Source: a virus
Length of the DNA: 22,871 bases
Reading direction: 5' to 3' (one strand)
Virus record (IMG/VR): IMGVR_UViG_3300012936_000186
Span: 1-22,871 of that record
In this document: positions 1,980 to 16,843 of the stretch, piece after piece
Numbering within the stretch: the stretch's first letter is position 1
Layout: every line of letters begins with the position of its first letter
Translations under genes and position numbers: made by a program
The notes under the pieces: model-generated
Databases searched by the model: none
Told to the model about the DNA's origin: nothing
What the model saw: only the letters and a program-made list of their open reading frames with translations

Positions 1980-2228
1980 ATGGCACAAGCAAACCCAAAT
2001 GCTGACGTAAGAGCGGCAAACGGACTAGTTGGTACAACTCATATTCTTTCAGTAACAGACGTTTCAGTTGTTTCAGTTGCGGCGGCTTGTTTAGAAGCAC
2101 AAAACGAAGGTTTTGTAGTTGTAGCAGTTGAAGATGACGTTACAAATGACGGATGTCACATCGCTTTACAAGGCGGAGCGGCAACACCTTCAATCACAGG
2201 TACCTCACTAGTTGTAACATTTAGTTAA
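1980..2228 (+). CDS. Small abundant virion protein (hypothetical)
   Basis: This 82-residue protein begins MAQANPNADVRAANG and has no signal peptide. It looks like a small alpha/beta or beta-rich domain (THILSVTDVSVVSVAAACLE, then EGFVVVAVEDDV, and ITGTSLVVTFS at the end). Its start is fixed by TAGGAGA at 1967-1973. It is a single-gene unit with its own late promoter, leader hairpin and rho-independent terminator, the arrangement expected for a protein made in high copy late in infection, such as a capsid decoration or minor head or tail protein. No similarity to a named family is recognised. The role is inferred from context only. Confidence 0.8.
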   Translation: MAQANPNADVRAANGLVGTTHILSVTDVSVVSVAAACLEAQNEGFVVVAVEDDVTNDGCHIALQGGAATPSITGTSLVVTFS

Positions 2229-2244
2229 GTTTTAACAACTTTAT

Positions 2245-2274
2245 AAAAAAGGGCATTTTACATGCCCTTTTTTT
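2245..2274 (+). terminator. Strong intrinsic terminator
   Basis: GGGCAT (2251-2256), loop TTTAC, ATGCCC (2262-2267), preceded by A6 and followed by T7. It closes the 1980-2228 unit. The A and T flanks would let it work in both directions. Confidence 0.92.
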
Positions 2275-2284
2275 ATCTTGAAAA

Positions 2285-2292
2285 GATAAATA
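2285..2292 (+). promoter_or_regulatory. T4-type late promoter (GATAAATA)
   Basis: Exact GATAAATA 45 nt before the ATG at 2338 and 10 nt after the T-tract of the previous terminator. Confidence 0.8.
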
Positions 2293-2301
2293 AAAGTAAC
2301 A

Positions 2302-2315
2302 GCGATATAAATCGC
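2302..2315 (+). promoter_or_regulatory. Leader hairpin of the second small late gene
   Basis: GCGAT (2302-2306), loop ATAA, ATCGC (2311-2315). Same stem core and same position relative to the late promoter as 1943-1957, but a different loop and different flanks. AGGAG at 2326-2330 follows. Confidence 0.55.
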
Positions 2316-2337
2316 GAAAGTAATTAGGAGAATTAAA

Positions 2338-2607
2338 ATGGCACAAGCAGATAGAAGAGCGGCGGCGGCTGGTGAGTTTATTGGTAAAGACGTATTCCTT
2401 AAGAGTTTTACTCAGCAATCAGGAAATATTAGTGCGGCACAATTAACAGCATTAGTTAGCTCAGTCCAAAACTTAAACCTTTCAGTATTAAAAGTTGGCG
2501 ACTTTACAGCAGACAGTCAAGCAGTTGTAAACTTTATTGTTGAAGGTGCTGACAACCTAGCAAACGGTGACATCGCAGGTCACGTTATTGCAGACGTTAG
2601 TTTCTAA
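2338..2607 (+). CDS. Small abundant virion protein (hypothetical)
   Basis: An 89-residue protein beginning MAQADRRAAAAGEFIGKDVF. It has a helix-rich first half (ISAAQLTALVSSVQNLNLSV) and a strand-rich end (AVVNFIVEGADNL, then GHVIADVSF). The start is fixed by AGGAG at 2326-2330. Like its upstream neighbour it is a monocistronic late unit with a leader hairpin and terminator. The shared MAQ start and unit architecture suggest a similar expression class, but clear paralogy between the two proteins is not visible by eye. The family is not recognised; an abundant structural role is inferred from the transcription signals. Confidence 0.8.
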   Translation: MAQADRRAAAAGEFIGKDVFLKSFTQQSGNISAAQLTALVSSVQNLNLSVLKVGDFTADSQAVVNFIVEGADNLANGDIAGHVIADVSF

Positions 2608-2625
2608 GTTTTTTTAAACTTATTT

Positions 2626-2654
2626 AAAAAGGCAGTTTTTTACTGCCTTTTTTT
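2626..2654 (+). terminator. Strong intrinsic terminator
   Basis: GGCAGT (2631-2636), loop TTTTT, ACTGCC (2642-2647), with A5 upstream and T7 downstream. It ends the 2338-2607 unit. Confidence 0.92.
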
Positions 2655-2668
2655 ATGACAGAAAAAAA

Positions 2669-2676
2669 GATAAATA
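2669..2676 (+). promoter_or_regulatory. T4-type late promoter (GATAAATA)
   Basis: Exact GATAAATA 30 nt before the ATG at 2707. A short AT-only inverted repeat (CTATT, loop AAG, AATAG at 2677-2689) follows immediately. If transcription starts about 6 nt after the motif, that repeat would be only partly transcribed. Confidence 0.8.
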
Positions 2677-2706
2677 CTATTAAGAATAGCAACATAGGAG
2701 AACAAC

Positions 2707-3078
2707 ATGGCGCAAACTAAAGTAAATCCAGTATGGGTTGACGAGGAAAACTTTTTTATAGGTTTAACTCCTTCATTTGTAGAAATTGGTTTTGGTGCGG
2801 CTGTAAATGCCAAAACTGGGCCAACTAGCACAATCCAAACAGTTATTCATGCCATACAAAATGAAAACGTAACTATTCTTGGGCATAGTGCATTGTATGA
2901 TACTAATCAGTCAATGGCTATTATGATTCAGGATGAAAAAGGTACAGATACATGGGACGGTTCAAACAGTGAAACTTTTGCCGCTCACTTGGAAGACGTT
3001 ATTCAAGCACTAGGAACAGTTGACGGTGTCAACTTAGCAAGTGCTACAGTTACAGCAAAAACATTTGAATTAGCATAA
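2707..3078 (+). CDS. Small virion protein (hypothetical)
   Basis: A 123-residue protein beginning MAQTKVNPVWVDEENFFIG, with AGGAG at 2696-2700. It has an acidic, mixed alpha/beta composition: a helix around IQTVIHAIQNENVTILGH, a strand around SMAIMIQDEK, a helix around FAAHLEDVIQALGTV, and a strand at ATVTAKTFELA. It is the third consecutive late promoter-gene-terminator unit. No signal peptide, membrane segment or enzyme motif is seen. It is probably a minor structural protein; the family is unknown to me. Confidence 0.8.
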   Translation: MAQTKVNPVWVDEENFFIGLTPSFVEIGFGAAVNAKTGPTSTIQTVIHAIQNENVTILGHSALYDTNQSMAIMIQDEKGTDTWDGSNSETFAAHLEDVIQALGTVDGVNLASATVTAKTFELA

Positions 3079-3097
3079 TAACTTATTCTTATTTTAG

Positions 3098-3126
3098 AAA
3101 GGGGACTTTTTAGTCCCTTTTCTTTT
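3098..3126 (+). terminator. Intrinsic terminator
   Basis: GGGACT (3102-3107), loop TTTT, AGTCCC (3112-3117), extendable by flanking A/T pairs and followed by TTTTCTTTT. It ends the 2707-3078 unit. Confidence 0.9.
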
Positions 3127-3150
3127 GACTGACATTTCTTCAACAAATCT

Positions 3151-3158
3151 GATAAATA
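3151..3158 (+). promoter_or_regulatory. T4-type late promoter (GATAAATA)
   Basis: Exact GATAAATA 30 nt before the preferred ATG at 3189. It is the likely driver of the long operon that follows, since no terminator is seen after 3593. Confidence 0.78.
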
Positions 3159-3188
3159 GTGTAATACAGATTAAGATTGGAGACACAG

Positions 3189-3593
3189 ATGGTTGGACAA
3201 AGATCAGGAGCAATGGGAAGTTCGGAAGTAGTTTCCGGAAACATTGAGTTTTATACATTGTTTACAACTATGGATATTACTAGAACAGGTGATTATTCAG
3301 ATAACACACAAAAAGATTTCGAAAGTATTGTACAGGTAATTGGTTTGAGAGCTCAGCCAGTTGTAATGAATAACCCAGTACAATTAAATGGTGTAGGTGC
3401 AAATGTATTAGAAAATTATGGAGCACCTAGTATCACTGGAGCAGGTTTTATTTTTAAATTTGCTTTTGAAAGAGAAGGAGTTCACACAGTTGATACACTT
3501 AAAGATGAACTAGATGGTATAGTTTTAAATGCTGGTACAGTAGATACTAAAAGTTCAATTAATATGGAATTTACTAAACAAGACTTATTATAG
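3189..3593 (+). CDS. Conserved-type T4-like phage virion protein (hypothetical)
   Basis: A 134-residue protein beginning MVGQRSGAMGSSEVVSGN. The ATG at 3189 is preferred over an in-frame TTG at 3177, because TTG lies inside the GGAG ribosome site (3179-3182) that serves the ATG. Sequence features (IEFYTLFTTMDITRTGDYSD, KDFESIVQVIGLRAQPVVM, and a C-terminal FIFKFAFEREGVHTVDTL) resemble, from memory, small structural proteins of marine T4-like phages. That resemblance is not verified here. It is strand-rich with no membrane segment. It follows a late promoter and has only 8 nt before the next ORF with no terminator, so it probably heads the operon running through 12836. Confidence 0.78.
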   Translation: MVGQRSGAMGSSEVVSGNIEFYTLFTTMDITRTGDYSDNTQKDFESIVQVIGLRAQPVVMNNPVQLNGVGANVLENYGAPSITGAGFIFKFAFEREGVHTVDTLKDELDGIVLNAGTVDTKSSINMEFTKQDLL

Positions 3594-3601
3594 AGAATAC
3601 A

Positions 3602-3841
3602 ATGCCTAAAAAGAGTGAACCCAAAACACAAATAAAGCCTTATATAGAGGATGGAAATATAGAAGCACATATAATTGCTGATATGTTAAGAATAGAAAGC
3701 ATCACTGCTGAGATAAGAGAATTCAAAGAAGTTACTAAACATAGATTAGACAAATTAGAAAATTGGATAATTGCTATTGTTGGATTAACATTTACAACTC
3801 TCGTCAGTATAGTAGTTGCATTAGTTACAAGTTTAATATGA
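3602..3841 (+). CDS. Small coiled-coil plus C-terminal membrane protein, XhlA-like (candidate holin)
   Basis: A 79-residue protein. Residues 20-52 form an amphipathic, coiled-coil-like helix (IADMLRIESITAEIREFKEV, then HRLDKLENW). Residues 53-79 are a strongly hydrophobic membrane segment (IIAIVGLTFTTLVSIVVALV) ending in TSLI. This order of a charged helix, a Lys-Leu-Glu-x-Trp turn and a terminal membrane span matches the haemolysin XhlA/holin-like architecture. A membrane role in lysis, or anchoring of an injected protein, is possible; neither is shown. The ribosome site is weak (AGAGAA). The stop overlaps the next ATG (ATGA), coupling it to the basic tagged protein downstream. Confidence 0.75.
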   Translation: MPKKSEPKTQIKPYIEDGNIEAHIIADMLRIESITAEIREFKEVTKHRLDKLENWIIAIVGLTFTTLVSIVVALVTSLI

Positions 3842-4122
3842 GATTAGAAGAGTTTGCAGACCAAATTTTAGAAGGCAGAATGGTTTGGCGTAAGATGGGA
3901 AACAAAGTCAAACGTGCTGTCAGATGTACTTCAGGTCCTAGAAGGGGACGTGTTGTTGCAACAGTTAGTCAGTGTGCAAAACCAATTAATATTAAAAAAA
4001 GATTAACACTTAAAAAAACTAAAGCAAGAATGGGTAGCAGAATGACAAGGAAAGCCCAAAGAACTAAAAGAGTTAATCCTGCAAGTAGAAGATTAAAAAC
4101 ACTTAACAAGAGAAAGTTTTAA
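3838..4122 (+). CDS. Very basic tagged internal protein with paired-Cys module
   Basis: A 94-residue protein. The ATG at 3838 overlaps the upstream stop and gives MRLEEFADQILE|GRM, a capsid-targeting-like peptide ending in I-L-E. A longer ORF from 3763 is only out-of-frame read-through of the membrane gene. The rest is extremely rich in Lys and Arg. It contains a Cys-paired motif (RCTSGPRRGRVVATVSQC, about residues 29-46) and then an Arg/Lys tail (KKTKARMGSRMTRKAQRTKR onwards). I infer a DNA-binding internal head protein, cut after residue 12 by the prohead protease. It overlaps the giant gene by TAATG. Confidence 0.82.
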   Translation: MRLEEFADQILEGRMVWRKMGNKVKRAVRCTSGPRRGRVVATVSQCAKPINIKKRLTLKKTKARMGSRMTRKAQRTKRVNPASRRLKTLNKRKF

Positions 4123-7100
4123 TGAAGCCTAAAGATTTTAGATCTATAGAAAGTATTCTTAAAGAGTACTCTATGAAGCCTGGAAGGACTCCTCCAACAC
4201 CTGTAAAAGATCTAGGTTTGAATGTTGCAAAAGCAACAGCATCAAAGGCCAAAGAATTGCAAAACATAGCAAAACGAGGTTCAGATATAGGTTCCAAATT
4301 TGCAATGGCATCTTCTGGAAAAGGAGGATCTTTTTTCCCTACTGCATCTAAGTCCATAGCAACTGGCAACCAGCCTAAAACATATAAACCAGTAAAAGCA
4401 AAAGACTTAAAATTAGACGATCAATTTGCAGACAAAGAAGGCAAGCCATTAAAAGTAATATCACCTCATAAAATGGTAAGCACAGCAAACCCAAATGATG
4501 TTGAAGATGTTGTGTTAGTACAAGACCCAGAAGGAAAAAATGAACCTATTGCATTAGACCCTGAAACAGACATCAAAGTTTCAGAAGGAAAACTTAGTAA
4601 AATAGCCAGCCGTAAAGGTAAAAAATTAAAAGTAAAAGATCTCAAAGCCAAAATTAAAAAACTGTCCAGAAAAAGACTAAAAGAAGCACCAGCAGAACTT
4701 TTTGAAATAAATTTTAACAAAAAAGAAGTAGCTCAAGAGGCATTGGACATGCCTGTACGATGTGGCTTTGAAGCAGAAACATTCTTTTATAATGTGTCAG
4801 GTGGTTCAGGTGAATACATAGATGACATGAGTGTGTCAGACTTTGAATACGAATATGGTGATTTACCAGATAGTGCTTATGAGTACTATGAGGACTGGTT
4901 GCGAGAAAAAGCCGCTGATGAGTATTTGGAAGGATACATAGATTCCTGGATATCAGAAAATCGTGACGAAGACGAGTGGATAGATGAGTTTATGACTTCA
5001 GGTGATGGTCCCACAATGGATGCTGTGGAAGAATACAGAGACCAAATGAAAGAAGATGATCCAGCCGAATATGAAAATCGTGAAGAGGATGGATGGGAAG
5101 ATGAAAACTGGGCAAGAGATTATATCAATGAGGAATATGAAACAGAGTACATAAATTTTCTGGAAGATATAGCCAGAGAAGATGATGATGTATTTGAAGA
5201 GGCTTTAGAAGAAGCCAGATCTGATTACAGCATGGACGAGTATGTTTCAGATCAGTATTACAGTTTAAGCAGTTTTCTAGATGACTTTGGTGTGGAATAT
5301 AATTATGGTGGAAGCCTGGAAGGTGTTGCTGAAGAATTAAACTCCTGGATAAAAGATAATAGTAAGTATGATGATTATCCAGAAACTGGTGACTATGGTG
5401 ATACTTACACTACAACAGGTTATGCAGTTGAGTCAGATAGCAGTATAGATGCAGATGAAGGTAAAGGTGCTGAACTTATTTCACCAGTTTTTGAATCTCC
5501 CAGAGAGATGCTAAGTGAAATGAAAAGTTTATTTGGGTGGGCAGAAGATAATTTTGGTACAAACAGTACTACTGGACTTCATGTTACAATGAGTTGGCAA
5601 GGTGAACCCAGAGGTGGCTCAGAGAAAAACGGACCCAACAAAGTTAAAATGGCATTACTATTAGGTGATTTATATTTGCTTAAATTGTTCAACAGATTAT
5701 CAAACAGTTATACCAGAAGTCAATATAAAAGTTTACTAAAACAAGCAGAAAAAATTAAGCAGGGAGACATGGACAGTTTCTTAAAATTACAGTCTGCATT
5801 AGAAAAAGGTGTAAGTCCTGATAAAATGATGTCTATTCATTTTAAAGACAGACAGAAAGATGATAAATCTGGCAACCAACTGATAGAATTCAGAATTATG
5901 GGTGGTACAGATTACCAAAATATGTATGAGCATATTGTAAAAACTGTTATAAGATATGCTACTGTAATGAAAGCAGGATATGACGATAAGGCTTACCTTA
6001 AAGATTATGGTCATGCTATGTTTAGATTGCTTAAAAAAGCAAAAGAAATAGATCCTAAAGAATTAGAACAATATGATTTAGACTCTCCAATTTTACAATC
6101 AGCAAAAAATATTGCTGGAAAATCAGATATGACTGTGATACTTCATAATTTTGATGTTAGTGTTATAAATTTAAGAGAGTATGAGCAACTTAACCAACCA
6201 GATGCTGACAAGCAATGGAAACAGGAAATAGCAGATTATGAAAAAGGCACTGGTGAAAAAGTTGAAATAGAAGAAGCACCTGTTGAGATTGGTGAACCAA
6301 TTACAGGATATATAATGCCTTCAGCCACAGCACCTAGCAGAAGAGCACCAGGCGTACTTCAGAAGGCACAGAAAAGTTTTGCCAGAGGTTTTAGTTTGTT
6401 GGCACAAAATATAGCAGAAGAGAAAAACACAGCAGATCCTAAAGCCAAAGATATTGCTAATTTTAGAAAATATATTAAGCAATTATCATTAGATGAACAA
6501 GGGTTAGCAAAATTAATACAACGAGATGTCACAGATAACGACAATAATGCCTCTGAAAATGATGCCATTAGATTACAGATGGTTAAAAAAGGTGTAGCAA
6601 AATTACTTAGAAAAGATATAATAACAGTTCCAGACTTTTTTAAACACCAGGACCTAGATAAAGTTGTAGACAGTATGTGGCAGTTCTTCCAGTCAGATGA
6701 TGCAAAAGATAATAAAGTAATAGATCAATTAGCAGACTTGTTTACACAAATAAATCCCAGACTTAAAAACAGAAAACCAGAAGTATTTAGAACTATAGTA
6801 CAACTTAGTAAGAAAAGACAAAAAAATGATTTATTCAGATACATCAAGGATGCTGGTTATGGTGCTGATGTAACTTTAATTACCCCTAATATGATTTCTG
6901 ATAGCAAAGCGATATCTAAATTGTACAAATTTTTAGAGCCATATCAAGGTTATGATCACCCAACAAGTAGAGATCATCATATTAATATCAGAAGTGATGA
7001 TAACTATGCTACAGTATTCCAGTATAGTATGGTACAAAAACTCAGAAACAGATTAGCCTATCTAAAAAATCTTGGTACCACAGATAAAGACAAATATGCT

Positions 7101-10100
7101 GATATCAAAGAGAGATTATTAAACATTGGTGACGAATTTTTAAGAAAATTAAAACCAGAAGATGAATATTTTAACAATCTTGAAAGAGATTGGAATCTCT
7201 ATTCAAAAGTAAGTGATGGAACTAGATTTTTAAGTATCGGCGATCTTGACAGATGGAATAATATGAGTGACAGGTTAGTAAAAATTAGGCAAGATGAAGA
7301 CGAAAGTACTTACAACTTTCCTCAGGCTTATGATGATTATGTATTAGGTAGTATAAATTTAGAAGCATATTACAACGCGAAGAAAAATGAAGAATACACA
7401 GACTTGTTTAAAGATAAATTTATAAAAAGTTTAATTAAGAAAAGATTTAAAGCATTAAAAGACTTCTTGACAAGTTTTGATAAAATATTTAGAGAAGAAG
7501 GTTTTTCAGATCTCAAAAATGAAATTTCAGGTAAAAATCAGTTAATTAAACGTAACAAAGACTTTGAAAAGAACGTCAGAGACAATGCCAAAGCAACATT
7601 AAATATACCTAGTCACAGTTATGTGTATTTAAATCGAGATTTTTATGATACAATTACTGATGATGATTATGGTGACAGAGCGGAATATTTAGATAATCAT
7701 TTAGAACATTTTAATGACAAAGTAAACAGTGGCGGAAAAGTTTATGTTATTCCTGCCGCACACTTTGGACAGGCAGAAGATGCCTACAGTGGACTAGAAC
7801 TTATAGAAACTATGGAAGGCGCAAATAACTATTATCACAGTTGGCGTAAAACAGGTTATAAAAAAATTATAAGTGCATTCTATGACAAATACAATGTGTA
7901 TTTTAGTGATTTAGTATATAGTAAAAATAAAACATATTTCCATGCTGGTGGAGATGAGTATGCTAAGTTACAACAATTAGGAATAGAAATTACCAGAAAA
8001 GGTGACAGCAGAACAGGTCAACCTGGTCAATCAGATTTAGTTGATAGAGATGAACTAAGAAATCCTAGAAGTGACGAGCCTATTGACAGAGGTAGTGCCA
8101 TGATGTGGAATCAGGGCGATGATCTAGATAAAGAACTAAAACGATTTAATGCTTTTGACTGGAGTGTGTACCCAGAAAAAATGAAAGGGTTAGTTGCTAA
8201 AGATCTCAAAGGCATGAAAGATCGCGAAGGATATTACAGTTTTAAAATAGCATTAGAAAATGTACTTAAACAAATATTAGATGGAGATATTGATTTAGCA
8301 TTAAACTATCAGGATAATGTAGAAGGAATGATAAAGGCGGCTGGTGTAGAAGATTATAAAGATGCCTCATCATCCGAAGTTGCTGATAGAACAAACTGGA
8401 ATAACCTAGCAAGATATTTAAAACTTAATTTAGGTGTAGATGACCAAGGTGTAAATTTACTTAGAAAAGTTTACAATCAATATGACAGTGATCACAACTG
8501 GAGACCAGAAGATCCAAGAGCAATAGGCACAGAAAGATGGGCCGCCGCAGTCAAGGCCGCATATGAATATATAGAAAAGAATTATACTGTAAGTGCTGGA
8601 AATTATTTTAGAAAAGATGCTGACGGTAATGCTGGTGATGATGTCAGTAGCATATATTCGAAACAACGAGATGATGACTCAGGATTCGATGTAACAACGC
8701 AAGATTATGATGATATGCGTAGAAAGTATCCTGATTTTAATACTATGATGGTGAATGGTATGCAGAATTATATATTAAGACCAGATACAAACAGACTAGT
8801 ATCGTTCCTTAAACAGCCAAAAAATGATGAAACATTCAAACGTGCTGTTTTAGTCAGTATGCAGAGAGAATATGAAGCAGATGCAGAACCAAATGATTTC
8901 CAAGGTCATTTAGCCAGAGCCAGAGTATATCTCCAAAATAGAATGAGAGATCTAAATAATAATCCTGGAGAAAGTGTATTTACTAAGTTCGATAAACTGC
9001 CTTTAGAAGAACAGTTGATTATTGTAAATGAATCTGAAGTTTTAGAAAAGTGGAGCAAAAAATACAAAGACAGTATAAATTGCAGTAATCCAAAAGGCTT
9101 TAGTCAAAAGGCTCATTGTGCCGGTAAGAAAAAGAAAACAAAAGAAACTATAGAAGCGGCTCAAGACTTAAACGCACTTATGAAAGGTATAGATTCTGAT
9201 TTAAAGAAACGTAAAAAAGATTCAAAAAAATTAGCAAACAAAAGTGTTTATGAAAGACCTTTAACAAAAGATGAAAAGAAAGATAAAGAAAAATATGTTA
9301 AAGGCATGAAGAAAAATACAAAAGACTTTAAAAAAAGATATGGTAAAGATGCTAAATCAGTAATGTATGCAACAGCAACCAAGATGGCAAAGGAAAGTAT
9401 TAGTGAAAATGTAAGCGAAGGTCCTAGCAGTCAAGCATTGCCAGACAATAGTATTCCAGGATTACTAAATGATATTTTATCACAGCCATTTCCTGCATGG
9501 GATCTTAAAAAACAATTTTTGGCCTACTATGCTGTACCTGATCCACAAATGCTATCAGACTTTAGGTATCATAGAGCAACACACGGAGATAATGGTTGTT
9601 TAAGAGGTATTTTACGTTTTTATATACAAAAACAATTAGATCCAAGAATTGTTAAAAAAATTAATTTAAATGAGCAAAGCAAATCCAGAGTAAAAGAAAT
9701 TATAAATGAATCTAGGGGACTGTATGGTAGACTCCCAGGTGATAAATTTAAAAGAGAAAATACTGAGATAGAGTTTCAAGATGTTACAAACTATCCTGAA
9801 ATTGGAAAGTTTGAAGATCCAGACAAAAGAGACGAAGCAATATCCCAATTAGAAAGTCAAATAGGTTCTCAAATAGAATGGATGAATATTCCTAACAAAG
9901 GAAGTTTAGGTTTTGCAATAGCAACATTAACAAACACTGAAAATAACGAAAAAATGTTTTGGGGAAGATACTTTAGAGAAATAACACCTAATATGATGGG
10001 TAAATGGTCCAATAAAGAAGTCCCACCAGGATGGCAGTTACAACATAATACTGCTCTTAAAATGGAAGCCGGCCTAGACCCTCAGCACTTAATTGCAACA

Positions 10101-11045
10101 GGTAAATGGATAGGCAATACAGATCAAGTAATTCAACTTATAAAAGAAAATGGTGGTGATAACCCTATAGTACCTAAATTATTAAATGCACTACAAGAAT
10201 TAAGTTCAGGTAACATGCCAAACTTTGAAAATGAAAGAGAGCAATTACCTGCTATAAGAGATTACTTTGGTGAAATTATGGGACCTATAGCTCTAAGAGG
10301 TGGATTAGATAGTAATGGACAAAGTGAAACTGCTAGACAGGAATTATTAGACAATGCTAATTGGAACGATTGTCAGGTTAGATGGCCACAGGAAATGAAT
10401 TATGCATTAGTAGACAGCCTATTTAAAGGACCTAATGGTGCAGAAGTAGGTATTAGCAGTAAAGGTGGTAAAGGTGCCAGTGCTGGAGTTACTAATATAG
10501 CAAAAGCAATGGCAAGAGCAAGTGAAGAGTTATTGGAAACTCACAGCAAAGCAGTAGAAATAATAAAAATAATAAATGACAATAGTGCCTTAAATGGTCC
10601 ATTTAGGTTAGCAGAGTATTTTGGATTTTTGCCTGAAGGTTTAGAAGAAGAAGTTAATTCATATATACAGCAAGTTAAAAAAGACTTTACAGGTTTAAGT
10701 AAAGGTGCTAAAGAATTGTTATCAGGCAAGTATGGAGAAGTACAAGATCCAGATAAAGTACCAGGGTTTAATACTGGTTTTGCATTAATGTCAAAATTAG
10801 CGAAAAAAATCACTATGCATATAAATACTAATATACCAGAATTCAGTGATGGATGTTTAGCATTCCTTAATCAGTCTGCTATTGTACAACTGTATTGTAA
10901 GATGGGCGTAAAAGGTCCAGATACATTTGTAGCAGAATGGAGATCAGTATATCCTCCACAGTTTGCAGGTAAAATTTTATTAGATAGTGGTAAAACATAT
11001 TATAGTAGTAGGATAGGAAGTAAGTTTTCCTTTAAGTTTAGTTAA
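4122..11045 (+). CDS. Giant (2307 aa) tagged virion protein with amidoligase-like domain
   Basis: The ATG overlaps the previous stop. Residues 1-15 (MKPKDFRSIESILKE) resemble a capsid-targeting peptide with an L-K-E protease site. Residues 16-205 are basic linker; L186-K187-E188|A is a second such site. Residues 214-640 carry amidoligase-like (COOH-NH2 ligase, GCS/GS-fold) motifs in order: GFEAE (215-219), ESDSSI (437-442), GAELISP (449-455), TGLHVTM (484-490), IEFR (588-591). A hyperacidic insertion fills about 224-430. Residues 650-1640 are helical with no recognised fold. Residues 1650-1760 hold Lys-rich modules: a C1654/C1666 pair around NPKGFSQKAH, then FKKRYGKDAKSVMYATATKM. The C-terminal 540 residues are another unknown domain with a GISSKGGKGASAG stretch near 2110-2122. 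It is probably a packaged, possibly processed, multi-domain effector. The amidoligase call rests on motif order only. Confidence 0.85.
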   Translation: MKPKDFRSIESILKEYSMKPGRTPPTPVKDLGLNVAKATASKAKELQNIAKRGSDIGSKFAMASSGKGGSFFPTASKSIATGNQPKTYKPVKAKDLKLDDQFADKEGKPLKVISPHKMVSTANPNDVEDVVLVQDPEGKNEPIALDPETDIKVSEGKLSKIASRKGKKLKVKDLKAKIKKLSRKRLKEAPAELFEINFNKKEVAQEALDMPVRCGFEAETFFYNVSGGSGEYIDDMSVSDFEYEYGDLPDSAYEYYEDWLREKAADEYLEGYIDSWISENRDEDEWIDEFMTSGDGPTMDAVEEYRDQMKEDDPAEYENREEDGWEDENWARDYINEEYETEYINFLEDIAREDDDVFEEALEEARSDYSMDEYVSDQYYSLSSFLDDFGVEYNYGGSLEGVAEELNSWIKDNSKYDDYPETGDYGDTYTTTGYAVESDSSIDADEGKGAELISPVFESPREMLSEMKSLFGWAEDNFGTNSTTGLHVTMSWQGEPRGGSEKNGPNKVKMALLLGDLYLLKLFNRLSNSYTRSQYKSLLKQAEKIKQGDMDSFLKLQSALEKGVSPDKMMSIHFKDRQKDDKSGNQLIEFRIMGGTDYQNMYEHIVKTVIRYATVMKAGYDDKAYLKDYGHAMFRLLKKAKEIDPKELEQYDLDSPILQSAKNIAGKSDMTVILHNFDVSVINLREYEQLNQPDADKQWKQEIADYEKGTGEKVEIEEAPVEIGEPITGYIMPSATAPSRRAPGVLQKAQKSFARGFSLLAQNIAEEKNTADPKAKDIANFRKYIKQLSLDEQGLAKLIQRDVTDNDNNASENDAIRLQMVKKGVAKLLRKDIITVPDFFKHQDLDKVVDSMWQFFQSDDAKDNKVIDQLADLFTQINPRLKNRKPEVFRTIVQLSKKRQKNDLFRYIKDAGYGADVTLITPNMISDSKAISKLYKFLEPYQGYDHPTSRDHHINIRSDDNYATVFQYSMVQKLRNRLAYLKNLGTTDKDKYADIKERLLNIGDEFLRKLKPEDEYFNNLERDWNLYSKVSDGTRFLSIGDLDRWNNMSDRLVKIRQDEDESTYNFPQAYDDYVLGSINLEAYYNAKKNEEYTDLFKDKFIKSLIKKRFKALKDFLTSFDKIFREEGFSDLKNEISGKNQLIKRNKDFEKNVRDNAKATLNIPSHSYVYLNRDFYDTITDDDYGDRAEYLDNHLEHFNDKVNSGGKVYVIPAAHFGQAEDAYSGLELIETMEGANNYYHSWRKTGYKKIISAFYDKYNVYFSDLVYSKNKTYFHAGGDEYAKLQQLGIEITRKGDSRTGQPGQSDLVDRDELRNPRSDEPIDRGSAMMWNQGDDLDKELKRFNAFDWSVYPEKMKGLVAKDLKGMKDREGYYSFKIALENVLKQILDGDIDLALNYQDNVEGMIKAAGVEDYKDASSSEVADRTNWNNLARYLKLNLGVDDQGVNLLRKVYNQYDSDHNWRPEDPRAIGTERWAAAVKAAYEYIEKNYTVSAGNYFRKDADGNAGDDVSSIYSKQRDDDSGFDVTTQDYDDMRRKYPDFNTMMVNGMQNYILRPDTNRLVSFLKQPKNDETFKRAVLVSMQREYEADAEPNDFQGHLARARVYLQNRMRDLNNNPGESVFTKFDKLPLEEQLIIVNESEVLEKWSKKYKDSINCSNPKGFSQKAHCAGKKKKTKETIEAAQDLNALMKGIDSDLKKRKKDSKKLANKSVYERPLTKDEKKDKEKYVKGMKKNTKDFKKRYGKDAKSVMYATATKMAKESISENVSEGPSSQALPDNSIPGLLNDILSQPFPAWDLKKQFLAYYAVPDPQMLSDFRYHRATHGDNGCLRGILRFYIQKQLDPRIVKKINLNEQSKSRVKEIINESRGLYGRLPGDKFKRENTEIEFQDVTNYPEIGKFEDPDKRDEAISQLESQIGSQIEWMNIPNKGSLGFAIATLTNTENNEKMFWGRYFREITPNMMGKWSNKEVPPGWQLQHNTALKMEAGLDPQHLIATGKWIGNTDQVIQLIKENGGDNPIVPKLLNALQELSSGNMPNFENEREQLPAIRDYFGEIMGPIALRGGLDSNGQSETARQELLDNANWNDCQVRWPQEMNYALVDSLFKGPNGAEVGISSKGGKGASAGVTNIAKAMARASEELLETHSKAVEIIKIINDNSALNGPFRLAEYFGFLPEGLEEEVNSYIQQVKKDFTGLSKGAKELLSGKYGEVQDPDKVPGFNTGFALMSKLAKKITMHINTNIPEFSDGCLAFLNQSAIVQLYCKMGVKGPDTFVAEWRSVYPPQFAGKILLDSGKTYYSSRIGSKFSFKFS

Positions 11046-12836
11046 ATGAGATTAAAAGAATTTACAAAAAATATATCAGAAGAGATTTATACATCTACAT
11101 TTGATAGCGACTTTGTTACTAAAGCAAAGACCCTTTATAATAAAGGAGATAAATTAGCTCTTATTAATCATATAAACCAACTGCAAATAAAAAGCAAACA
11201 AATCAATAACAAAGAACTAGACAAATATCTTGTAGACTTAAAATTAGAAGTAGAAGAAAATTTTGATGATGAAGAAGATATAGAATTACTAATAGATATG
11301 ATCGATGAGTTATTAAATCCTAAGCGACGTTTAGATGCAGAAGCCGGAGGCGGTGGTGGTGCCGGTGGCGGTGGTGCTGGTGCTGGTGGCGGTGGTGCTG
11401 GTGGCGGTGGTGCCGCAGGTGGTACTGGCGGAGCAACAGGCGGAACATCAGGCGGTGATGGTGGCGGAACAAGTTCAGGTGGAGACGGAGGGTCTGCAGA
11501 TGGTGGTAGCACCGGAGATAGTGGTACTACATCCTCCGATTCCACTTCCAGTGATGCTCCAGTTAGCAGAGGTTTTTATGGCATAGGAAGTATAGCACCA
11601 TATAAAAAATCTAAAAAGAAAAAGAAAAAGAAAAAATCCAGTTTTAAATTTGGACAAGGTATATATGAGGCAATAAAAGAAGTAGAAATTTGTCCTAAAA
11701 CAAGATCTAAAAATTGTCAGTGTGAAAGGCTTACAAGAATTTCAGAGGCAGAAGAAACAGTTAAAGCAATAGCACAATTAGAACATGCTGATGATGGTGT
11801 AGAAGGTGTTATTAAATTTAAACAAAGAGCAGGCAAATCCACAATTATAAAAGGTATAATCAGAGGATTGACTCCAGGTAAACACGGATTTCATATTCAC
11901 GAATTTGGTGATCTAAGTAATGGATGTGAATCAGCAGGTGCTCATTATAATCCAGACGGAGTAGAACATGGAAGTTTAGAACAAGGACATGTGGGCGACT
12001 TAGGAAATATCATAGCAGATAAATCAGGTACTGCTAGATTCCAAATAAAAGCAAATAGAGTTACACTTTCTGAAGTAGTTGGTAGAGCTATTGTTATACA
12101 TGCTGATGAGGACGACTTGGGTAGAGGTGGTGATGAAGAAAGTTTAAAAACAGGTAATGCTGGTGACAGAGTAGGTTGTGGTGTAATACGTTTAAGAGAA
12201 GTTATAGAAGAAAAATACATAAGGCCTACTTCTGATAAACATTTTGCTAGAAACGATCTTCCTCAAATTAAACGACCTGATATAGAAAATTCAGATTTTG
12301 AATACAAAGAAGGTAAAATCAGTATAGAAAAAATTAAACCTGTACAAACTCAACGTGTAGATGGATTAAGTAAAAAAGCAGAAGATGTATTTTTAAACAA
12401 TGAAGACAGACCATTTATTTTAGATAAAAACGGTTATTTAATAAATGGACATCATAGACTGGATGCCGCAAATATATTAGGTATTAGCAAAGTACCAGCA
12501 ATAATGATAGATGCAAACATTGAAGAAGTAATGGATTATTTCAGTCACAAGGTAAGTAACACACCAGTAATGTCTGAGTACGATAATTTTAATTTCCTTT
12601 TAAATAATTATCTTACACAAAAGAAAATCCTAAATGAATTAAAAGATGCCACAGACGAAAACTTTAAAGATGGCAAAGTAAAAGGCAAAAGTCGTCCAGG
12701 ACGAGTAAAGAAGGCAGGAGCCAGTTGCAAAGGTTCAGTAACCAGTTTGCGGAAAAAAGCAAAAAACAGCAGTGGTGAGAAGTCAAAAATGTACCACTGG
12801 TGTGCCAACATGAAGAGCGGTCGTAAAAAATCCTAA
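11046..12836 (+). CDS. Tagged fusion: Cu/Zn superoxide dismutase, ParB-like and basic C-terminal modules
   Basis: This 596-residue protein starts directly after the giant's stop. Residues 1-12 (MRLKEFTKNISE) are capsid-targeting-like. Helices lie at 15-95, a Gly4-Ala-type linker at about 99-168, and a Lys8-type run near 190-200. Residues 240-390 are a SodC domain with every metal ligand: H283 and H285 (GFHIHEFGD), H300 (GAHYNPDG), H308, H315, D318 (GHVGDLGN) and H352. The C294-C378 disulfide pair, R375 and the GNAGDRVGCGVI signature are also present. It should convert superoxide to peroxide and oxygen. Residues 410-500 are ParB-like (NGYLINGHHRLDAANILG, H469-H470-R471). Residues 545-596 form a basic module (SCKGSVTSLRKKAKNSSGEK, then YHWCANM) of a kind found in marine phage proteins. 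No secretion signal is seen. I infer packaging in the capsid. Confidence 0.92.
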   Translation: MRLKEFTKNISEEIYTSTFDSDFVTKAKTLYNKGDKLALINHINQLQIKSKQINNKELDKYLVDLKLEVEENFDDEEDIELLIDMIDELLNPKRRLDAEAGGGGGAGGGGAGAGGGGAGGGGAAGGTGGATGGTSGGDGGGTSSGGDGGSADGGSTGDSGTTSSDSTSSDAPVSRGFYGIGSIAPYKKSKKKKKKKKSSFKFGQGIYEAIKEVEICPKTRSKNCQCERLTRISEAEETVKAIAQLEHADDGVEGVIKFKQRAGKSTIIKGIIRGLTPGKHGFHIHEFGDLSNGCESAGAHYNPDGVEHGSLEQGHVGDLGNIIADKSGTARFQIKANRVTLSEVVGRAIVIHADEDDLGRGGDEESLKTGNAGDRVGCGVIRLREVIEEKYIRPTSDKHFARNDLPQIKRPDIENSDFEYKEGKISIEKIKPVQTQRVDGLSKKAEDVFLNNEDRPFILDKNGYLINGHHRLDAANILGISKVPAIMIDANIEEVMDYFSHKVSNTPVMSEYDNFNFLLNNYLTQKKILNELKDATDENFKDGKVKGKSRPGRVKKAGASCKGSVTSLRKKAKNSSGEKSKMYHWCANMKSGRKKS

Positions 12837-12848: not shown

Positions 12849-13901
12849 ATGACTATGGACCCCAATTTTTATATCTATAATTACTATGATACGTTAAGCG
12901 ATAGCATAAAGAAATCTTTAGATCATAATCATCATTACAGTACCAATAAAATAGATTTACATAAAATTAGGGAAACTTTTTACAATTCCACATTCAAATC
13001 TCCTTTACATGAAGATTGGATGGTAGATTGTCAAGATCCAAACTATACATACGAGTCTAAGTTTAGTATATCTGATACGCCTGAAAGGCATCAGGAATTA
13101 TTCAAAGATAAATTAGAAACTAAAATACTTGCAAATAATGGATATGCATATTTAGATGAAACTACAACCTGGAGGATAAAGGATAATGTAAGGTACAAGT
13201 ATAACAGTATGGGATTTAGATCACCAGAACTATCAGATACTCCTTGTGTTGCATTTTTTGGTTGTAGTCATACATTTGGCACAGGACTAGATCAAGAGCA
13301 TATTTGGCCAGAAGTATTATGTAAACAACTTGGAATGAGGTCTGTAAATATTGGTTTTCCTGCTAGGGGTATAGATATGTCTGCCATATATGCCAAATAT
13401 TTTTTTAAAGCGGAAATAAAAAACTGTAAAGCAATCATAATATTTTTACCTCCCCCAACAAGAAAAAGTACATTTCAACATATGATAGACCCTTATAAAA
13501 GTAAAATGAAATTTGCTTTAAGGCAAATGGAATGGCTTGACTCTAATAGAGAAGATTATTATGGTGGGGAACTATTTAGTGGAGACATACAAAATGGAAT
13601 GGCATATACATCTACTGATAACGATTGGCAAATAGCAAATGAAACAAAATTGTTAATGGCTCAGGATATTTTGGAAAAACATAATACTTTTGAAAGAACG
13701 TCCACTGCAATATCAGATATAGAACTATTAGCCAGAGATTTAAATATTCCTTTGCTTACATATTCCACTTTTACAGATGTTGAAATAGGCACTAGGCAAT
13801 CAACAGAATTTGCCAGGGACAATATGCATGGTGGAAAAAATATACATGAGGCATTTGCGAACAAGGTTGCACAAGAATTAAATGCAAAATTAGATAAATA
13901 G
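12849..13901 (+). CDS. SGNH/GDSL-hydrolase-like protein
   Basis: A 350-residue protein beginning MTMDPNFYIYNYYD; a second ATG at 12855 is possible. The SGNH-type core starts at about residue 130. Block I is AFFGCSHTFGTG with the nucleophile candidate S140. Block II is NIGFPARGID. The catalytic Asp-x-x-His is DNMHGG (D324, H327), near the C-terminus as in the family. Block III (GxND) is replaced by IIIFLPPPTRK, so it is atypical. Likely substrates are esters, for example acetyl groups on surface glycans, but nothing in the sequence fixes this. It lacks the capsid-targeting tag of its neighbours, so it may be a tail-associated or non-packaged late protein. No Shine-Dalgarno is visible; see the promoter at 12836. 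Confidence 0.8.
   Translation: MTMDPNFYIYNYYDTLSDSIKKSLDHNHHYSTNKIDLHKIRETFYNSTFKSPLHEDWMVDCQDPNYTYESKFSISDTPERHQELFKDKLETKILANNGYAYLDETTTWRIKDNVRYKYNSMGFRSPELSDTPCVAFFGCSHTFGTGLDQEHIWPEVLCKQLGMRSVNIGFPARGIDMSAIYAKYFFKAEIKNCKAIIIFLPPPTRKSTFQHMIDPYKSKMKFALRQMEWLDSNREDYYGGELFSGDIQNGMAYTSTDNDWQIANETKLLMAQDILEKHNTFERTSTAISDIELLARDLNIPLLTYSTFTDVEIGTRQSTEFARDNMHGGKNIHEAFANKVAQELNAKLDK
13893..13900 (+). promoter_or_regulatory. T4-type late promoter (GATAAATA), leaderless geometry
   Basis: Exact GATAAATA whose last bases are part of the upstream stop codon (TAG 13899-13901). It ends 5 nt before the ATG at 13906, and no ribosome site lies between. The following bases differ at one position from those after the 12836 motif (ATAAATAGTAATATG here, ATAAATAGTCATATG there). 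Confidence 0.65.
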
Positions 13902-16193: not shown

Positions 16194-16523
16194 ATGCTAA
16201 TACGTGATATTATCAGAGAAGGGTACGAAGCAGACTTAATCCAAAAAGTACAAGACATACTTGTAATGAAAATGGACTCTGGTGATTCACTATCTACAGA
16301 AGAATTTCAAAATTTGTTAAAAGACGAAGGTTATATTGCAACCACAGACGAAGTCATAAAAGCAGTAAATGACAGTGGTTATGCAAGTAGCATAGATAAA
16401 GAACAAATTAAACTTAAAAATCAAATGCCTGCAGACGTTGATACTGGTGAAGAAGAGCCATCAGTAGATGTAGGTAAAATGGCTGGCGATCAAGCCATGA
16501 AGGATATTAAGTCGGAGTTATAA
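16194..16523 (+). CDS. Small acidic tagged virion protein
   Basis: A 109-residue protein whose ATG lies 1 nt after the previous stop. The N-terminus MLIRDIIRE|GYEADL is nearly the same as that of the 13906 gene (MLIREIITE), although the bodies are unrelated, which shows a transferable tag. The body is a helical, EF-like alternation of helices (ADLIQKVQDILVMKMDSGDS, then STEEFQNLLKDEGYIATTDE) and a disordered acidic tail. I see no proper calcium loop. It overlaps the next gene by TAATG. I infer a capsid-internal protein. Confidence 0.8.
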   Translation: MLIRDIIREGYEADLIQKVQDILVMKMDSGDSLSTEEFQNLLKDEGYIATTDEVIKAVNDSGYASSIDKEQIKLKNQMPADVDTGEEEPSVDVGKMAGDQAMKDIKSEL

Positions 16524-16843
16524 TGGCAAATATATTTGTAAATGCAACACAGGCCAGAAAGGATAGTAGAAATAATAGTGTTATCCATTCTGAAGTCAGA
16601 GCTATTGAAAGTATAGTTTTAGCAAATGTAGATGCAGGAGTTCTTTATGCAAATGTAAAGTCCTCATCTGAAATGACAAACAGTAATGTTTATTACAATG
16701 TATGGAATAGCATTACTACAGACCCTACTAAATTAGATCAAATGAACTATGTTAAAAAACACTTCGAGGATCTTGGATACGGAGTGAGTGTAGTCACAAA
16801 TTTAGATTCCAATAATACAATAAGTTGGAATATTTCCTGGTAA
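16523..16843 (+). CDS. Conserved-type small marine phage protein (MANIFVNATQARKDSRNN)
   Basis: A 106-residue protein starting in a TAATG overlap. It begins MANIFVNATQARKDSRNNSV, continuing IHSEVRAIESIVLANVDAG, which resembles, from memory, small proteins of T4-like cyanophages annotated as hypothetical or structural. The N-terminal half is helical; the C-terminal half (VSVVTNLDSNNTISWNISW) is strand-rich. It is not tagged for the capsid. The family resemblance is not verified. The function is unknown; a virion role is inferred from the late operon. Confidence 0.75.
   Translation: MANIFVNATQARKDSRNNSVIHSEVRAIESIVLANVDAGVLYANVKSSSEMTNSNVYYNVWNSITTDPTKLDQMNYVKKHFEDLGYGVSVVTNLDSNNTISWNISW

Follow-up and report, generated by a model that had tools for sequence, protein, structure and literature searches.

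The locus examined here raises the question of what a Cu/Zn superoxide dismutase (SOD) is for when a phage encodes it within a long patchwork protein. The window, i.e., the whole stretch of DNA that was analyzed, is a virus record of 22,871 bases and represents a fragment. Comparison of the locus with its relatives suggests that a large family of marine phages carries an intact Cu/Zn SOD in patchwork proteins that look as if they were built for loading into the phage head.

The SOD Domain Is Complete and SOD1-Like

The open reading frame (ORF) at 11046-12836 encodes a protein whose residues 252-381 match the Pfam family Sod_Cu (PF00080) with E=6.1e-45 and a score of 153 bits (curated cut-off, 28.9). 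The Cu/Zn ligands H283, H285, H300, H308, H315, D318, and H352, the C294-C378 pair, and R375, which the original prediction had named as intact, were all found at these positions. A scan of viral contigs yielded 135 related stretches, with identities of 64-85% in the 80 that were kept. The seven metal ligands (six His, one Asp) and the Arg were invariant in 51/51 distinct marine viral relatives, and the disulphide cysteines were invariant among these 51 sequences except in one truncated row, while dN/dS was ~0.04-0.13 in the less saturated pairs. Chance can be excluded for the SOD because of the number of related viral stretches, the invariant ligands, and the low dN/dS. Structure prediction, which had been proposed as a check, bore out the fold: AlphaFold2 modeled the SOD core from 47 sequences as a Greek-key SOD1 fold with a pLDDT of 95.5, and Foldseek placed the predicted core with solved SOD1s at TM 0.92-0.96 and ~1 Å. 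A model of residues 201-596 from 13 sequences reached a pLDDT of 56, a low confidence at which it supports no claim.

The SOD domain is almost certainly active. Retention of the fold for structural reasons, e.g., to form a stable dimer within the core of the head, with incidental catalysis, would have a parallel in the inactive SOD-like virion proteins known in poxviruses, but as all seven ligands, the disulphide pair, and the catalytic Arg are conserved throughout, this is exceedingly unlikely.

The original prediction had called the enzyme a SodC. Judged by its sequence, however, the domain is SOD1-like and not a classic periplasmic SodC. The loop DDLGRGGDEESLKTGNAGDR (DDLGxGGDEESLKTGNAG) is of the SOD1 type, the best solved sequence matches are eukaryotic SODs, and the identity to solved SOD1s is ~45-50%, compared with 31-34% to the Salmonella prophage SodC. 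Inspection of the N-terminal sequence of the SOD protein revealed no signal-like stretch, the N-terminus being hydrophilic. Since such a stretch is missing, the loop is of the SOD1 type, and the best sequence and structure matches are SOD1s, the domain does not belong with the bacterial periplasmic SodC enzymes.

The relatives are metagenomic virus contigs, and those genome bins that bear a name are marine. A tree that included 41 sequences from genome contigs placed the marine viral SODs in one cluster. Four MAG contigs (L108-L111; 61-67%), GTDB genome contigs from bins labeled Betaproteobacteria, Pelagibacter, and Rickettsiales that carry the phage-type SOD, were considered as close relatives of cellular origin. 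This origin was rejected, and the four look like binned phage DNA, because they fall inside the phage SOD clade and have the phage N-terminus.

The SOD Is Part of a Mosaic of Exchangeable Modules

The ORF starts with the base that follows the stop of the 2307-aa ORF upstream (TAAATG), and its product can be divided as follows (all on the + strand; arrows mark candidate cuts):

11046-12836, +: SOD mosaic protein, 596 aa (ORF and Pfam search)
11046-11084, +: putative CTS-like (head-targeting) N-terminus MRLKEFTKNISEE, candidate cleavage NISE↓E after residue 12 (T4 L/I-X-E rule, PMC9026906)
11085-11333, +: N-terminal module (STFDxxFVxKAKxLY), C-terminal in relatives L077/L078 (comparison with relatives)
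11334-11657, +: Gly-rich, then Lys-rich cassette with the end FKFGQGIYE, before or after SOD in relatives
11691-11753, +: prosegment CPKTRSKNCQC...RISE↓AE, residues 216-236, with three conserved Cys and the [IL]xE↓A motif
11799-12188, +: Cu/Zn SOD domain (Sod_Cu), residues 252-381, active site complete (Pfam, alignment, AlphaFold)
12333-12533, +: ParB-like domain with INGHHR motif (domain searches)
12657-12833, +: basic Cys/His tail E↓NFKDGK... (SCKGSVT..YHWCANMK), a stand-alone gene in other phages

The module following the CTS-like start opens with STFDSDFVTKAKTLY. The linker anticipated by the original prediction is present, its Gly-rich stretch comprising residues 97-172 and its Lys-rich stretch residues 173-204. 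The strongly basic tail that had been predicted was likewise recovered (net +14, residues 511-596), while the ParB-like assignment held in part: residues ~430-495 match ParB-like PHROG families (best ParB-named one, E=4e-7), but Pfam ParBc_2 stayed under its cut-off (E=0.0026). As regards a full ParB with N-terminal ParB domain, HTH, dimerisation domain, and partner ParA, the domain search returned a ParB-like segment only. The sulfiredoxin and ParB folds are related; a sulfiredoxin identity was set aside because the GHHR motif lacks a Cys. A second ParB-like motif (MDGNHR) occurs in the product of 29-1414, together with a glycine-zipper-like C-terminus, and a stretch resembling part of this product (YEGFTDECNDG) is fused behind SOD in L018. 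The conserved CxC prosegment, which reads CPKTRSKNCQCERLTRISE↓AE in the window, had been overlooked in the original domain list.

The fusion itself had been thought unusual. A survey of the domain architectures of viral SOD proteins showed that it is no one-off, since fusions are common in these viruses, with many architectures in dozens of loci. Plain CxC-SOD accounted for 41/81 of the relatives surveyed, mostly stand-alone enzymes of ~190 aa, and others combined CxC-SOD-ParB with or without the tail. The Gly/Lys cassette may precede SOD, follow the ParB domain, or separate ParB from SOD, and the N-terminal module of the window forms the C-terminus in L077 and L078. In L027, a single chain of 2472 aa comprises the SOD protein together with the counterpart of the 2307-aa ORF that lies upstream in the window. 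In L098 (MRAREFVIE↓NFADGK) and in L010, the basic tail is encoded on its own as a small protein that opens with a CTS-like sequence, and elsewhere it forms the end or the middle of unrelated proteins; a search against phage isolates gave no matches for it, to which the low-complexity filter may have contributed. This module shuffling provides a list of interchangeable cargo modules with testable targeting and cleavage rules.

Further fusions were observed among the relatives. SOD lies inside other large mosaic proteins with DUF5824 and a weak DUF5754 match (L036:1493-4720, L079:326-2650), the start of which (FTFGRLNPPTVGHEKL) was read as nucleotidyltransferase-like, and in L032:7368-8453 it follows an HD-domain-like module in one fused protein (Pfam HD, below threshold). 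The product of 4122-11045 in the window has a module NCSNPKGFSQKAHC that also occurs in cyanophage proteins encoded either between gp16 and gp17 or immediately behind gp23, as well as a module KKRYGKDAKSVMYATATK; its motif GFEAET..GLHVTMSW (no Pfam match) is one that we take to recall amidoligase-type enzymes.

The survey bears on the main rival explanation, namely that the SOD is a late-expressed auxiliary enzyme of the cytoplasm that is left unpackaged and shields ribonucleotide reductase, replication, or assembly from superoxide. Such a role would fit the plain, mostly stand-alone CxC-SOD of about half of the relatives and a SOD protein without export signal, whereas fusion to shuffled, strongly basic modules would not be expected of it.

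The SOD Gene Lies Among Counterparts of Virion Genes and Is Probably Transcribed With Them

The surroundings of the SOD gene were compared with the structural cluster of the Pseudomonas phage PA5oct, and the following features were assigned:

3151-3158, +: GATAAATA late-promoter-like site, the last one before the gene run 3189-12836 (cyanophage late promoter, PMC2984593)
3189-3593, +: counterpart of PA5oct gp250, an MS-detected structural protein (collinear match)
4122-11045, +: 2307-aa CTS-like mosaic protein directly upstream of the SOD gene, fused to the SOD protein in L027
14864-16192, +: counterpart of PA5oct gp247, an MS-detected virion structural protein (collinear match)
16194-16843, +: collinear with the MS-detected PA5oct proteins gp245 and gp246, the latter a weak counterpart assigned by position

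ORFs 3189, 14864, 16194, and 16523 match gp250, gp247, gp246 (weak), and gp245 in order, and ORFs 16870, 17582, 20273, and nrdA match gp244, gp243, gp242, and gp241, again in order. According to the PA5oct annotation, gp250, gp247, gp246, gp245, gp243, and gp249 are structural proteins detected by ESI-MS/MS, and gp249 holds the position of the window genes between 3602 and 14795. The SOD gene sits between the gp250 and gp247 counterparts, a position that it also has in dozens of relatives' loci. In PA5oct, no SOD was found and other genes occupy this position; therefore, the MS evidence concerns the neighbours of the SOD gene. Its place within a virion-protein cluster argues against an unpackaged cytoplasmic enzyme, in favor of which the presence of nrdA in the same cluster can be cited.

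A second group of SOD-bearing phages (e.g., G010 and G012) has a stand-alone SOD at another place, in G010 shortly before a gene that was read, by eye, as the large terminase. The major capsid protein of G010 shares 67% identity with those of PA5oct-type Pseudomonas jumbo phages. Adjoining the SOD gene in the window, 12849-13901 has a DUF6473 match (E=2e-6) and occurs in about a dozen relatives.

The late promoter of T4-like cyanophages is NATAAATA (PMC2984593). The sequence GATAAATA occurs at 8 sites in the window (1337, 1926, 2285, 2669, 3151, 13893, 14823, and 17549), all on the + (coding) strand, compared with 2.4 expected; 7/8 lie 6-47 bases ahead of a gene, and the strand bias in the relatives is 108:3. 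The classical T4 late promoter TATAAATA was rejected as a candidate, being not enriched (1 site vs. 4.5 expected). Four small genes in a run at 1980-3593, the last of which is the gp250 counterpart, have a late-promoter-like site each. Directly upstream of 11046, no GATAAATA was found. Since the nearest upstream site is at 3151, the SOD gene is probably read as part of the gene run 3189-12836.

N-Terminal Peptides and Cleavage Motifs Resemble Those of T4 Internal Proteins

In T4, an N-terminal CTS of 10 residues directs internal proteins into the prohead, and the protease gp21 cleaves behind L/I-X-E (PMC9026906, PMC9958956). Several ORFs of the window start in a similar manner: MKINDIILE, MRLEEFADQILE, MKPKDFRSIESILKE, MRLKEFTKNISE, MLIREIITE, MFIREF..LLSE, and MLIRDIIRE. 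A strict CTS-like pattern was present in 4/17 window ORFs vs. 0.09 expected from shuffled N-termini, a pattern that was defined after the sequences had been seen and whose enrichment is weaker in the distant contigs G010 and G012. Like starts are found in the MS-detected PA5oct proteins gp246 (VKIKDILVE), gp247 (MFLKDVKITE), and gp249 (MNKIKLEQILKE), and protein 108 of cyanophage S-SM2 has the CTS-like start MKTLKQFLKE. The candidate head-targeting peptide of the SOD protein, MRLKEFTKNISE↓E, is a short peptide ending in L/I-x-E. The capsid tag of the original prediction is accordingly plausible as a CTS-like start of a kind enriched in the window, its support being a sequence match.

Nearly all relatives have CPxT-x4-CxC followed by [IL]xE↓A, a motif of the T4 prohead-protease type, ahead of SOD. 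In 44/47 distinct relatives, [IL]xE lies ≤14 residues from CxC (17.5 expected from shuffling), in 43 of them at one offset; these motif statistics come from related, non-independent sequences. The residue after [IL]xE is mostly A or S. In the loci examined, CPxT-CxC was found solely directly N-terminal to SOD and is the only module tied to it, and its use as a general tag was rejected for this reason. Among 76 bacterial relatives, no CPxT-CxC was found upstream of SOD in the coding part, two regex matches seemingly lying before the start codon. At the junction with the basic tail, E precedes N in 29/29 contexts and P3 is usually hydrophobic; the window's own junction, TDE↓N, fits poorly at P3.

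S77 proteases are encoded by PA5oct and by the SOD-bearing contigs G010 and G012. No match to an S77 protease was obtained in 28/30 related contigs, all of which are possibly partial, and a prohead protease gene is absent from the 22.9-kb window fragment.

An unpackaged cytoplasmic enzyme would account neither for the CTS-like N-termini nor for [IL]xE↓A ahead of SOD even in many stand-alone forms, and taken with the evidence above we regard this explanation as unlikely.

A Possible Route From Late Expression to the New Host

The explanation that we consider the most probable, derived from sequence comparison, is that of a mosaic protein that is made late, packaged in the head, and trimmed by a protease, and that delivers active SOD when the phage infects. 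The SOD gene would be transcribed late together with other virion genes, and an N-terminus resembling those of T4 internal proteins would carry the SOD protein into the prohead core. A prohead protease of the gp21 type (S77) would then cut after Glu at [hydrophobic]-x-E between the modules, the most consistent site being [IL]xE↓A right before SOD, and release the basic tail and SOD, the latter either alone or still joined to the ParB-like domain, as internal head proteins. Both would stay attached to the packaged DNA or lodged within it and leave the head together with it, and the ejected SOD would remove superoxide in the first minutes of infection. These parts differ in strength: the SOD protein is likely packaged in the head and is probably trimmed by the prohead protease, and its action after ejection in the new host is put forward tentatively, as something that may or may not hold. 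Quenching of a host oxidative burst, which the original prediction had also considered, is speculative.

Alternatively, a packaged SOD could have its role before the next host is entered, by shielding the particle or the packaged genome against superoxide in sunlit seawater. The evidence for packaging applies to this alternative as it does to the entry role, and the marine origin of the relatives described above would suit it. However, T4 internal proteins of known role act after ejection (PMC3012670, PMC9958956). Furthermore, superoxide is short-lived and diffuses poorly through a packed head, and we consider protection of the particle very unlikely.

If delivery at infection is correct, antioxidant enzymes would join the nuclease inhibitors and ADP-ribosyltransferases that phage heads deliver, ocean phages would seem to face superoxide as a genuine hurdle early in infection, and uncultured marine jumbo-type phages would prove to have a cargo system that is modular and processed by a protease.

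Comparison With Known Systems

No report of a SOD in a phage head was found in the open-licence literature, covered mostly by titles and abstracts. The Salmonella prophages Gifsy-2 and Fels-1 also encode a Cu/Zn SOD, at the 31-34% identity given above. Their SodC proteins are virulence enzymes that the lysogen makes for its periplasm and are not known to be virion cargo.

The Cu/Zn SOD of chlorovirus PBCV-1 (A245R) is encoded by a late gene and packaged in the virion (PMC7019647), and giant viruses such as Megavirus have a SOD as well (PMC9405923). Like the enzyme described here, these are viral SOD1-type enzymes, proposed to lower superoxide during infection (PMC7019647, PMC9405923), but they are stand-alone enzymes of eukaryotic viruses, while here a tailed phage has SOD fused to modules and a CxC prosegment.

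The CxC of the copper chaperone of SOD1 (CCS) acts in SOD1 disulphide formation (PMC6383938). CCS likewise joins a SOD-like domain to a CxC, its domain II is one of the closest structural matches of the viral SOD, and the CPxT-CxC element recalls its domain III. In contrast to CCS, the viral enzyme bears the CxC in its own chain, on the N-terminal side, an MxCxxC domain was not seen, and any function of the CxC is speculative. It is conceivable, although we think it quite improbable, that the head cargo consists of protease-processed polyproteins of swappable modules in which CPxT-x4-CxC is a disposable in-cis metallochaperone or disulphide catalyst that, with a function like that of CCS, matures SOD in the prohead and is then removed by the prohead protease.

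The structural cluster gp254-gp241 of the Pseudomonas jumbo phage PA5oct (Arenbergviridae) has the same gene order and orthologous MS-detected neighbours, and differs from the window in having no SOD and other genes at its position. The T4 internal head proteins (IPI, IPII, IPIII, and Alt) are variable cargo made late and led by a short targeting peptide, with L/I-x-E at its end, and occur in T4-superfamily phages that have an S77 protease (PMC9026906, PMC9958956). Compared with these, the cargo of the marine phages, the packaging of which we infer, would be a metalloenzyme embedded in a large protein of many shuffled modules that offers several candidate internal cleavage sites.
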